From positions 62,001-126,000 of the forward strand of contig NZ_BJUA01000001.1 of assembly GCF_007989825.1 (NCBI RefSeq): a stretch of 64,000 nt of DNA. The letters run 5' to 3'. The position numbers and the translations under genes are program-made. The notes beneath the pieces are model-generated. The model worked only from the letters and a program-made list of their open reading frames with translations, did not search any database and had not been told where the DNA came from. This document shows positions 42,015-44,830 of this stretch, in pieces. The stretch is from Cellulomonas persica. Its GTDB lineage: Bacteria; Actinomycetota; Actinomycetes; Actinomycetales; Cellulomonadaceae. Numbering within the stretch: the first letter of the stretch is position 1; the number at the start of each line of letters is the position of its first letter.

Positions 42015-42145
42015 CGCTTGCTGCGACGTGCGCGGACGGACGAAAGGCCTGGTTGGCGCGCACCCGGCCGAAATGTGACGAGGGAGACGGTCGCGATCGT
42101 CCGCCATCGCCCGATATCTCGGCGACAGGTGTCAGTGGCCGTGTC

Positions 42146-42273
42146 TAGGGTCGAGGTGAACCGGGCCGTCGAGCCCGCATCGCGGCGCCGCACTGCTCGA
42201 GCGGCCGGACTGCTCGAGCGGCCGGCTGTTCGAACGGCCGGCTGTTCGAACGGCTGGCTGTTCGAGCGGCTGG
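42146..42273 (+). repeat. -10 element and five-copy 16-bp repeat in a 5' leader
   Basis: A TAGGGT hexamer (42146-42151) suggests transcription from about 42158. From 42193 to 42273 five tandem units follow: CTGCTCGAGCGGCCGG (with an extra A after the first), then three diverged copies with TTCGAACGG or TTCGAGCGG cores. Each unit contains a self-complementary CTCGAG/TTCGAA centre, so the leader RNA of the PASTA lipoprotein could fold into serial small hairpins. The remaining gap 42015-42145 shows nothing else. Confidence 0.8.
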
Positions 42274-42314
42274 CGCCGCCCCACCACACGCACCACCCAA
42301 GGGGATCATTCCGT

Positions 42315-42686
42315 ATGAAGTCGTTCGCCGTCCGTTCCGTCGTCGTCCTCGCCGCTGCAGGCTCGCTCCTGCTCGCCGGCTGCTCGTCCGACGACGCGAC
42401 CACCGACACCACTGGGACCGCCGAGGCCACCGCGACCGCGGAGGCCACCCCCGAGCAGACCGAGGCGCCCACCGAGGCCGAGGTGCTCGACGTCACCCAC
42501 ATCCAGCTGCAGACGGCGATCGACACGCTCGGCCTTCGCGGGCTCGAGTCCAAGGCGGTCGACGTCGACGGCAACGAGCTCGTGCCGGACGCCGAGGCCG
42601 TGTACCTCGTCGTCGACCAGGACCCGATCGAGGGCGTCGTCCCCGTCGGCACGGTCATCACGCTGACGGTCGAGAAGAAGGCCTGA
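42315..42686 (+). CDS. PASTA-like lipoprotein
   Basis: A 123-residue lipoprotein: signal peptide with lipobox LLLAGC (Cys23), an acidic Thr/Ala/Glu linker (residues 24-55) and one PASTA-like domain (LQTAIDTLGLRGLESKAVDV ... VDQDPIEGVVPVGTVITLTV). PASTA domains bind peptidoglycan or beta-lactams; this could sense or attach to the wall. ATG 42315 is preceded by AAGGGGAT. It has a long leader with tandem repeats and a strong terminator. Confidence 0.85.
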   Translation: MKSFAVRSVVVLAAAGSLLLAGCSSDDATTDTTGTAEATATAEATPEQTEAPTEAEVLDVTHIQLQTAIDTLGLRGLESKAVDVDGNELVPDAEAVYLVVDQDPIEGVVPVGTVITLTVEKKA

Positions 42687-42759: not shown

Positions 42760-42825
42760 CGTGCGTCCCGGGCCGAGTCAGGCGGGACGCCCGCCCGTCG
42801 ACCCGCGTCCGAGGTGCGGGAACCT

Positions 42826-42855
42826 TTGCGCACGGCACGGCGTTGGCGCTAGCGT
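42826..42855 (+). promoter_or_regulatory. Promoter of the cysteine leader-cysK-cysE operon
   Basis: TTGCGC (42826-42831) and TAGCGT (42850-42855), 18-bp spacer. Start near 42862 gives a leader of about 364 nt before cysK, which contains the Cys-rich peptide and hairpins. Confidence 0.65.
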
Positions 42856-42897
42856 CACCCACGACTGCGGCCCCCGTGCCGCCCCCAGGAGGAGAGC

Positions 42898-42969
42898 ATG
42901 AGCGAGCGGACGTCCGCCCCCGCCTCCTTCTCGCGCGCCTTCGTGGCGCCCTGTTGTCGCTGTCGGTAG
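42898..42969 (+). CDS. Cysteine-rich leader peptide upstream of cysK
   Basis: A 23-codon frame: ATG 42898 preceded by a near-perfect ribosome binding site AGGAGGAG (42887-42894) and ended by TAG 42967-42969. The peptide begins MSERTSAPASFSR and ends with Cys-Cys-Arg-Cys-Arg. All three Cys codons (42952-42954, 42955-42957, 42961-42963) are TGT, the codon rarely used in this G+C-rich genome, which would increase ribosome stalling when Cys-tRNA is scarce. Directly after the stop a nested hairpin begins. The gene that follows is cysteine synthase, so a cysteine-responsive attenuator is the natural reading. Such Cys-rich upstream frames are known from mycobacteria, in different families. Confidence 0.82.
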   Translation: MSERTSAPASFSRAFVAPCCRCR

Positions 42970-43128
42970 AGCGCTGGCTCCTGCGCGCGACGACACCCTC
43001 CCTGGCGGGAGTGTCCGGTGCGCCAGCGCTCGCCCCGGCGGCTCGTCCGCACCCGGCGTCCTCGCCGGCGCAGCCACCCCCTGAGAGCACCAGATCGGTG
43101 TCGGGACCCGGACCGGCGGGACCGCCGG
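42969..43128 (+). promoter_or_regulatory. Candidate cysteine attenuator structure
   Basis: Outer 10-bp arms GAGCGCTGGC (42969-42978) and GCCAGCGCTC (43022-43031) begin at the last base of the leader stop codon. Inside lies a second hairpin: GACAC-CC-TCCC (42992-43002) pairing with GGGA-GTGTC (43007-43015), loop TGGC. A third G+C-rich inverted repeat, CCGGCGG/CCGCCGG, is at 43113-43128. A ribosome stalled on the Cys codons would mask the left outer arm and change folding. Whether it controls termination or translation is not evident, since no U tract is present. Confidence 0.7.
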
Positions 43129-43225
43129 ACCTCGTCGCCACCGTCTCACCCGCTCGCAGCCCGTTCGTCAGGCAAGTCCCCCGCATCCGCCGTCGCACCC
43201 GCGGCGGCTCGACCGAAGAGGAACC

Positions 43226-44161
43226 ATGGCACGCATCTACGACGACGCGACCGCGCTCATCGGCAACACCCCGCTGGTCCGCATCAACAAGATCACCGAC
43301 GGCGCCCCCGCGACGGTCGTCGGCAAGCTCGAGTTCTACAACCCGGCCAACTCCGTCAAGGACCGCATCGGTGTCGCGATCATCGACGCGGCCGAGGCGT
43401 CGGGCGAGCTCAAGCCGGGCGGCACCATCGTCGAGGCGACGTCGGGCAACACGGGCATCGCGCTCGCGTTCGTCGGCGCGGCGCGCGGCTACGACGTCGT
43501 CCTGACCATGCCGGAGACGATGTCGAAGGAGCGCCGCGCGCTCCTTCGTGCGTTCGGCGCCGAGCTCATCCTCACGCCGGGCTCCGAGGGCATGAAGGGT
43601 GCGGTCAACCGTGCGAACGAGATCGTCGCCGAGCGTCCCGGTGCGGTCCTGGCCCGTCAGTTCGCGAACGAGGCCAACCCCGCGATCCACCGCAAGACCA
43701 CGGCCGAGGAGATCTGGGCCGACACCGACGGCCAGATCGACATCCTGGTCGCCGGCATCGGCACGGGCGGCACCATCACGGGCGTCGGCCAGGTGCTCAA
43801 GGAGCGCAAGCCGGACGTCAAGATCGTCGCGGTCGAGCCGGCCGAGTCCCCGATCCTCAACGGCGGCCAGCCCGGCCCGCACAAGATCCAGGGCATCGGC
43901 GCGAACTTCGTGCCGGAGATCCTCGACACCTCGGTGTACGACGAGGTCATCGACATCGACGCCGACACGGCCGTCACGTACGCGCGCCGCGCCGCCGCCG
44001 AGGAGGGCCTGCTCGTCGGCATCTCGTCGGGCGCCGCGCTCGCGGCCGCCAAGCAGCTCGCGGAGCGTCCGGAGAACGCGGGCAAGCTGATCGTCGCGAT
44101 CATCCCGTCGTTCGGCGAGCGCTACCTGTCGACGATCCTCTACGCCGACCTGCTCGACTGA
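43226..44161 (+). CDS. cysK: Cysteine synthase A (O-acetylserine sulfhydrylase)
   Basis: A 311-residue PLP enzyme making cysteine from O-acetylserine and sulfide. PLP-binding Lys45 is in [11 protein letters not shown], the substrate loop is TSGNTGIAL, and the phosphate cup is [10 protein letters not shown]; the C-terminus has [10 protein letters not shown]. It ends in DLLD, different from the usual CysE-binding tail but the neighbour is cysE. ATG 43226 follows AGAGGAA. It is preceded by the Cys-rich leader peptide and followed by cysE. Confidence 0.97.
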
Positions 44162-44168
44162 GCGGCTG

Positions 44169-44203
44169 CCGCACCCCGGAGCGCCCGTGCGCCCGGGGTG
44201 CGG
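44169..44203 (+). terminator. Hairpin between cysK and cysE
   Basis: CCGCACCCCGG (44169-44179) pairs perfectly with CCGGGGTGCGG (44193-44203); an inner GCGC/GCGC extends it with loop CCGT. It may partially terminate transcription, reducing cysE relative to cysK. Confidence 0.7.
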
Positions 44204-44245
44204 CGACCCCGTCTCACCACCCGCGTCCCCCGAGAGCCAGGTCCC

Positions 44246-44830
44246 ATGCCGTCCCTGCAGCACTTCGTCGCCACGTTCCGCGAGGACCTCGAGGCTGCGC
44301 GTCGTCGCGACCCCGCAGCGCGCTCGTCGCTCGAGGTCGCGCTCGCCTACCCGGGCGTGCACGCGGTCTGGACGTACCGAGTGGCGCACGCGATGTGGCG
44401 CGACCCCTCGCTGCGCCTGCCCGCGCGCCTGCTCTCCCAGCTCGTGCGCGCGCTCACCGGCATCGAGATCCACCCGGGTGCGCGGCTCGGCCGGCGCCTG
44501 TTCATCGACCACGGCATGGGCGTGGTCATCGGCGAGACCGCCGAGGTCGGCGACGACGTCGTGCTGTTCCACGGCTCGACGCTCGGCGGCAAGTCGATGC
44601 GCAAGGGCAAGCGGCACCCCACGCTCGGCGACAACGTCGTGGTCGGCGCGGGCGCCAAGATCCTCGGCCCCGTGTGGATCGGCGACGACGTGCAGGTCGG
44701 CGCGAACGCGGTCGTCATCCACGACGTGCCCGCCGGGGCGATCGCCGTGGGTGTCCCCGCGCAGATCCGGCTGCGCCCGCTCGCGGCGCCGTTCGACGCC
44801 GAGATCGACGACCCGGCGATCTACATCTGA
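44246..44830 (+). CDS. cysE: Serine O-acetyltransferase
   Basis: A 194-residue, short-form acetyltransferase that makes O-acetylserine from serine and acetyl-CoA. A helical N-terminal region ([25 protein letters not shown]) is followed by left-handed beta-helix hexapeptide repeats, with catalytic His in [20 protein letters not shown] and the [24 protein letters not shown] segment. It lies 84 bp downstream of cysK, behind a hairpin, and is probably in the same transcript. ATG 44246 has no strong ribosome binding site. Confidence 0.95.

Follow-up and report, generated by a model that had tools for sequence, protein, structure and literature searches.

Does the short cysteine-rich reading frame that lies upstream of cysK and cysE in Cellulomonas persica control these genes by ribosome-mediated attenuation, and by what means could it do so in a high-GC genome? 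The question was raised by a model, here called the sequence-only reading, on a stretch of 64,000 nucleotides (nt) of this genome (RefSeq assembly GCF_007989825.1, contig NZ_BJUA01000001.1, positions 62,001 to 126,000 of the forward strand; hereafter the window). It noted a leader frame rich in Cys codons, inverted repeats abutting the stop codon of this frame and genes for cysteine synthesis behind them, and it proposed an attenuator. We followed this element, the leader frame together with the hairpin at its stop codon, through relatives, and the proposal was largely borne out as far as sequence alone allows: the leader, the position of its Cys codon, a covarying hairpin and a constant cysK neighbour were all recovered. 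The element is real and conserved and most likely a cysteine attenuator; we consider it probable that it is a ribosome-mediated attenuator of the cysK(-cysE) operon whose hairpin leads to termination before cysK. The coordinates of all features are collected in Table 1.

The leader was found at 42898-42969 as it had been described, a frame of 23 codons with a strong Shine-Dalgarno (SD) sequence and the C-terminal end CCRCR, and all of its three Cys codons are TGT (42952-42957 and 42961-42963). Upstream regions of the same genus were taken by cysK homology and not by motif, which gave 75 loci. Of 80 genomes, 77 had a close cysK, while G007, G046 and G054 with distant cysK matches only, as well as G038 and G064 on account of the upstream region, were left out. 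Two loci (L013 and L018) were cut by contig ends, leaving 73 complete regions. A frame ending in Cys-x-Cys-(x)-stop was present in 71 of them, the exceptions being L069, which retains only the second Cys of the C-x-C pair, and L075, which is without any element.

A larger set of 161 distinct elements (249 minus exact duplicates) was assembled from the genus set (70), a pattern scan (35) and model searches (56). To be admitted, an element had to have a Cys codon at one of the last two positions of the frame, a stem of seven pairs starting with the final base of the stop codon, and a GAGC-like arm; the model-fetched sets are biased to paired members, a bias of which the genus set is free. The start of the leader was SD-led in 158 of the 161 elements, which come from several families, and an SD with an ATG or GTG start within 45 codons was seen for the leader frame in 155 elements vs 3 and 1 for the other two frames. 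The mean number of Cys in the last ten codons was 3.57 in the leader frame, where one Cys was an entry requirement, vs 0.13 and 0.45 in the other two. By the start rule used the leader has 17-46 codons, and the rest of the peptide varies widely; very Cys-rich leaders occur in relatives, for example in Demequina (...TCCRCCGCCCL), and nine Cys are present in three of 158 leaders.

The strictest constraint was found at the end of the frame. Every one of the 161 elements reads TGT, CNN, TAG and then the stem, though the entry rule permitted TGC and other stops, and TGC never stands two codons before the stop. TGT holds this position also in all 126 elements that were not fetched with a TGT pattern and in 70 of 70 same-genus elements fetched by cysK homology. 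The last leader codon encodes Arg, Leu, Pro or His, its first base being kept and its amino acid not. Elsewhere in the leaders the choice of Cys codon is different: 6 to 12 codons before the stop, TGC outnumbers TGT by 154 to 12 (161 leaders), and outside the codon two before the stop the same-genus leaders (n = 70) carry 108 TGT and 55 TGC.

The hairpin begins at the stop codon itself. In the window it is an inverted repeat of 10 base pairs (bp) whose first base is the G of the leader stop codon. The region 42960-43040 folds with -47.5 kcal/mol (z = -3.17; none of 200 shuffles was as good), and the fold of the longer stretch 42862-43060 is ordinary (z = -0.52; 62 of 200 shuffles as good). The stem was present in 72 of the 73 complete same-genus regions and begins at the stop codon in 71; these 71 were found by a strict rule, and that of L074 was placed by alignment, 2 nt after a TGA stop. 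The sequence-only reading had described nested inverted repeats at this place, and this description stood in part: the outer stem is conserved and covarying, and the inner layer is missing from the consensus fold, so that a two-layer stem was rejected.

Covariation was examined in two alignments and on a tree. In A1 (72 same-genus elements dereplicated to 37 sequences, selected by a pattern in which TAGAGC, or one of two variants of it, and GCTCGC were prescribed), the consensus stem has 9 bp with zero broken cells and two-sided change in four pairs; when the tenth pair is counted, two-sided changes occur in 5 of 10 pairs, a value reached by none of 500 shuffles. In A2 (71 sequences chosen from the elements then collected), 6 of 10 pairs show two-sided changes, in 21 cells, again reached by none of 500 shuffles, with 95% of cells paired, and slid versions of the stem gave at most 9 two-sided cells. 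Parsimony on a cysK tree of the 161-element set gave some 25 changes on both sides of a pair, spread over pairs 5, 6, 7, 9 and 10, with pairs 1 to 4 almost constant; gains or losses of pairing numbered 4 at pair 8, 13 at pair 9 and 30 at pair 10. Pairing is kept through changed arms in several relatives, as GAGCATTG/CAATGCTC in L267 and L268, GAGCGTTGAC/GTCAACGCTC in L132, GAGCGTCGG/CCGGCGCTC in L131 and GAGCGCGGG/CCCGCGCTC in L134 and L271. Because the A1 pattern fixed the lower four pairs, the evidence for the stem rests on the pairs above them. The gap between the 7-bp arms ranges from 16 to 75 nt across elements. The check in relatives that had been suggested along with the original proposal found that upstream of cysK the Cys codons are kept, together with their spacing from the hairpin, the SD-led start and the base pairing.

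These features are those expected of an attenuator. A Cys-rich, mostly SD-led (158/161) leader stands upstream of a gene making the same amino acid, and a stem that begins at the stop codon, at a fixed distance from the last Cys codon, is the structure of a ribosome-mediated one, in which formation of the stem would be governed by the position of the ribosome. By the usual ribosome footprint, a ribosome whose A site holds the last UGU would reach to about the fourth or fifth stem base. A ribosome waiting there would come close to the near-invariant GAGCG, and one at the stop codon would hide the greater part of the 5' arm. Formation of the hairpin would then have to await release of the ribosome, which speaks for the hairpin as the sign of sufficient cysteine and of the off state. 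We propose that ribosomes load onto the SD-led leader and that, with ample Cys-tRNA, they would translate through the UGU codons and dissociate at UAG, upon which the RNA from the stop codon on would fold into the hairpin and most transcripts would stop short of cysK. Under a shortage of Cys-tRNA, the ribosome would be held at the last UGU, the second codon ahead of the stop; with its front edge over the lower 5' arm, no hairpin would form and transcription would run into cysK. The leader, the Cys codon position, the covarying hairpin, the constant cysK neighbour and the C-rich spacer support this attenuation logic from the sequence; translation of the leader, stalling, the response to cysteine, the direction of control and premature termination through the hairpin are predictions.

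In this proposal the ribosome itself would be the antiterminator, and no alternative helix was found. The consensus folds contain no antiterminator helix that uses a stem arm, and in relatives with changed arms the letters of the leader do not change along. On this ground, a helix between the 3' arm and CGCTGTC of the leader itself was rejected by inspection. A pairing of the 3' arm with the SD of cysK was absent from the consensus folds of both clades.

How transcription would end is suggested by the sequence that follows the stem. An intrinsic terminator was rejected, the tail having C instead of U in nearly all of the 161 elements; a scan of the window for intrinsic terminators also found none, with loops of only 3-8 nt allowed, to which this hairpin is invisible. 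The low-GC relative L268 carries the U-rich TTTTTCTT after the stem. The spacer from the hairpin to cysK is 38-232 nt long and contains more C than G in 161 of 161 elements, vs 59% of control upstream regions (n = 164). An excess of C over G of at least 0.18 was found in 76% of the spacers vs 14% of the 164 control regions, and the value of the window spacer is 0.155, below the median of 0.227. Such a C-rich, G-poor spacer could load Rho, which is suggestive of Rho-assisted termination in the high-GC species; in the low-GC relative with TTTTTCTT termination may be intrinsic. Combined, these traits might define a new attenuator class of this order, in which a single hairpin starts within the stop codon with neither antiterminator nor U-tract, the waiting ribosome blocks the fold, the invariant UGU-CNN-UAG tunes the switch and Rho discharges it on the C-rich spacer; this we put forward tentatively, with less than even confidence.

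Several points weigh against attenuation by premature termination as proposed here. A U-rich tail (at least four T among the 9 nt that follow the stem), as in attenuators of the classical trp/his type, occurs in only 2 of the 161 elements (L128 and L268). A Rho site far downstream would lie outside the protection of a leader-bound ribosome, so the link between hairpin and Rho is conjecture. The control regions for the C excess came from a home-made gene caller and have cysK's own upstream regions among them. As to the stem, the lower four pairs are invariant in the 71 sequences of A2 besides being fixed by the A1 selection, and covariation is no proof of them; pairs 9 and 10 are frequently unpaired (10/71 and 20/71), and the statistic of further pair types was equalled by 8 of 500 shuffles of A2. 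The 161 elements are distinct yet not independent, and since seven paired positions were their entry rule, unbroken pairs there are uninformative. L127, L141 and L277 miss the seven-pair rule, and L075, as said, lacks the element. The fixation of TGT-C at the nucleotide level, with the next amino acid varying, is not explained by cysteine sensing alone. Finally, weak consensus helices near the start of cysK would fit translational control.

These helices lead to the strongest rival, translational attenuation, in which the leader ribosome would change the folding of the RNA and thereby open or close the cysK ribosome site with no premature termination. It agrees with the missing U-rich tail in 159 of 161 elements and with the report of translational attenuation for cysteine genes of M. 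smegmatis, according to the accessible part of PMC13236596. A small hairpin is present just before the cysK SD in one Cellulomonas clade, the consensus fold of this clade (22 of 47 members) pairs GCC of the tail with GGC at cysK codons 1-2 and two bases with the SD, and in 21 loci of the Demequina type a conserved spacer GCGTT pairs with cysK positions 19-23 in the consensus, enclosing SD and start. However, these start-region helices differ by clade, show invariant pairs, G-U pairs or one-sided changes and are without covariation support, the conserved hairpin lies 38-232 nt upstream of cysK, its 3' arm pairs with no SD in the fold of either clade, and the C excess of the spacer is left unexplained. 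We regard translational attenuation as unlikely, with premature termination preferred.

Control at the promoter, with the hairpin serving merely as a transcript stabiliser or pause site, would draw on the conserved promoter-like block, which overlaps a palindrome-like sequence in 29 of 70 same-genus leaders by a loose pattern; it is improbable, as it leaves the Cys codons and their fixed distance to the stem unexplained. Very improbable is an action of the Cys-rich peptide in trans, for example as a metal- or redox-binding microprotein. The C-x-C and poly-Cys ends, up to the nine Cys of three leaders, would suit such a peptide, but its remaining sequence and its length vary widely, its last residue may be R, L, P or H, and the constraint falls on codon, position and hairpin. 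Scarcely credible is a reading in which a regulator binds the inverted repeat as its DNA operator and the frame is there by coincidence. The near-constant sequence of the repeat's lower half would favour it, but pairing survives through G-U pairs and two-sided changes, the gap between the arms varies over the range given above, and the Cys frame that runs up to the repeat stays open.

The distribution of the element was determined with two covariance models. With R1, 71 of the 150 genomes searched in the family gave a match and 77 of the 396 in the order (E ≤ 0.01); R2, built from the 71 sequences of A2, likewise gave matches in 77 of 396 in the order (E ≤ 0.001). In a class sample of 394 genomes, R2 matched only two, members of the same family as the window, in a search with stricter filters (applied above 40 genomes) that lose weak matches. 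Among the 44 of 50 loci with R1 matches that were read, cysK is next and in the same direction in 34, and the other 10 score at most 30.4 bits; some of the weak R1 matches are chance, and L136-L140 and L142 have no cysK. Of the 77 R2 matches in the order, 20 were read, and cysK is downstream in all 20. A scan with named records gave 107 stretches, and the 80 of them listed are mostly from Cellulomonas, Actinotalea and Demequina, with one Cellulosimicrobium record and several metagenome-assembled genomes (MAGs); cysK is downstream in 73 of these 80, five of the other seven run out at the edge of the locus, and the last two are probably chance matches. The element thus precedes cysK also in other families of the order, Demequina included. 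The two matches rejected as chance, a Pseudomonas record (L153) and a Comamonadaceae MAG (L200), have neither cysK nor an SD-led frame. In L190 (JAKBFW010000092.1), titled a Proteobacteria MAG, the element is present and the adjoining cysK is 85% identical; this is probably a misbinned contig.

In the own genome the element gave a single strong match of 79.2 bits, the next scoring 24.1 bits. Further copies were rejected: 10 matches of at most 24.1 bits (E up to 5) include the element's own reverse strand, and the four that were read (L077-L080) have no cysK alongside. The cysK upstream regions of 25 class-sample genomes, the best-matching ones besides the own from 100 with a match and seven of them of the same order, showed no seven-pair stem at the stop (best 5-6 pairs). 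Six of the 25 carry a different short frame with at least two Cys near its end and no stem at the stop. These frames (L286, L289, L291, L292, L295 and L298) mostly read (R/N)RxVD(F/Y)...C, and that of L298 is poly-Cys.

In enteric attenuators of the pyrBI/pyrE and leu types, a ribosome close to the hairpin decides termination, and rare codons serve as control codons. A decision by ribosome position near the hairpin, as proposed for the Cellulomonas element, would be shared with them; they differ in their U-tract terminators and in the signal or amino acid sensed, and the leu type has an antiterminator.

Cys-rich upstream frames had been noted as known in mycobacteria, in agreement with a survey of 2005 (PMC1262725), whose accessible part lists Cys leaders in Mycobacterium and Propionibacterium acnes (cys operons) and Bifidobacterium longum (cbs). 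The likeness is in the short frame with runs of Cys codons near the stop, the place upstream of actinobacterial cysteine genes and the lack of an obvious terminator; in that part of the survey no conserved terminator-like hairpins are reported and Rho is suggested, as a weak prediction. Unlike those leaders as presented there, the Cellulomonas element has a covarying hairpin from the stop codon and lies upstream of cysK. Cysteine attenuation in mycobacteria is also proposed in what is accessible of PMC4633059. The mycobacterial polycysteine short open reading frames (Canestrari et al. 2020), as represented in excerpts of PMC9031893, PMC9094748 and PMC13236596, are likewise short frames upstream of cysteine genes, the cysteine response being the mycobacterial feature. 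They are leaderless, whereas leaders of the Cellulomonas type are SD-led in 158 of 161, have a promoter-like block at a median of 65 nt upstream of the start and carry a fixed hairpin and a fixed TGT codon. The uORFC-8-2 motif upstream of cysS in Rhodobacterales (PMC8632094), going by the available portion of that paper, resembles the element in Cys codons of an upstream open reading frame, a structured RNA and proposed ribosome-mediated attenuation, and differs in tandem Cys codons inside the first stem, dominant UGC, a U-run terminator and another gene and phylum. A re-annotation of S. lividans (PMC8079986) gives, in its accessible text, eight leaders, none for cysteine genes.

By the features compared, the element is outside both the leaderless mycobacterial class and the U-tract class. 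Rfam 15 gave no match to the element at gathering score in the window or in the loci of eight relatives, and no match at E up to 1 in 42800-43260. No description of it was found in the literature searched, with most subscription papers outside coverage. That the sequence-only reading could not place the SD-led form, the leader sequence and the stem in a described class is in line with both results.

The locus and its further features are as follows. The leader element lies within a 539-nt gap between a frame ending at 42686 and cysK, and the downstream genes make cysteine, as had been read from the sequence, cysK and cysE/epsC both scoring above their NCBIfam cut-offs. The CysK of the same-genus genome G026 is 98% identical to that of the window. 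Upstream of the leader, CTTTG was found in 62 of 70 same-genus regions and CTTTGNG with a spaced TANNNT in 57 of 70; a strict sigma-70 consensus scan found nothing. In 42824-42865 and in relatives the promoter-like block shows CTTTG and GTTGACGCTAGCGTC, the version of the window being GTTGGCGCTAGCGTC, and the palindrome mentioned above, around the presumed -10, could be an operator. In Demequina loci such as L112, L116 and L150 a second hairpin of the type GGCATCG...CGATGCC stands directly after the GCCCC tail and before GCGTT. A 16-bp GC-rich tandem repeat in five copies (42193-42274) was observed inside the open frame 42018-42686.

Table 1. Features of the leader element and its surroundings (positions in the window).
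Feature	Position	Strand	Remark
Promoter-like block	42824..42855	+	CTTTGCG 42824-42830, TAGCGT 42850-42855; conserved in same-genus leaders
Shine-Dalgarno AGGAGGAG of leader	42887..42894	+	ends 3 nt 5' of ATG; SD-led start in 158/161 distinct leaders
Cys leader open reading frame MSERTSAPASFSRAFVAPCCRCR	42898..42969	+	ATG 42898 to TAG 42969; conserved in relatives
Presumed control codons TGT TGT CGC TGT	42952..42963	+	codon two before stop TGT in 161/161
5' arm of conserved hairpin GAGCGCTGGC	42969..42978	+	starts at third base (G) of stop codon
3' arm of conserved hairpin GCCAGCGCTC	43022..43031	+	pairs with 42969-42978
Conserved tail GCCCC after stem, no U-tract	43032..43036	+	G 87%, then C 85-89% at next four positions (161 elements)
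C-rich spacer up to cysK	43032..43225	+	88 C and 60 G of 194
Second hairpin just before cysK SD	43189..43208	+	small; seen in one (the main) Cellulomonas clade
cysK, cysteine synthase A	43226..44161	+	TIGR01139, 457.5 bits vs cut-off 350.95 (NCBIfam)
cysE/epsC, serine O-acetyltransferase	44246..44830	+	NF041874, 244.4 bits vs cut-off 150 (NCBIfam)

In the literature found, bacterial cysteine attenuation is described as tested only in mycobacteria. The element adds a compact, widely conserved RNA from soil bacteria that are amenable to laboratory work; its stem and its control codon are defined, it predicts two states, and it might find use as a part for sensing cysteine. With it one can test how attenuation proceeds without U-tracts in high-GC Actinobacteria, a gap that the accessible text of PMC1262725 states for Cys and Leu leaders.
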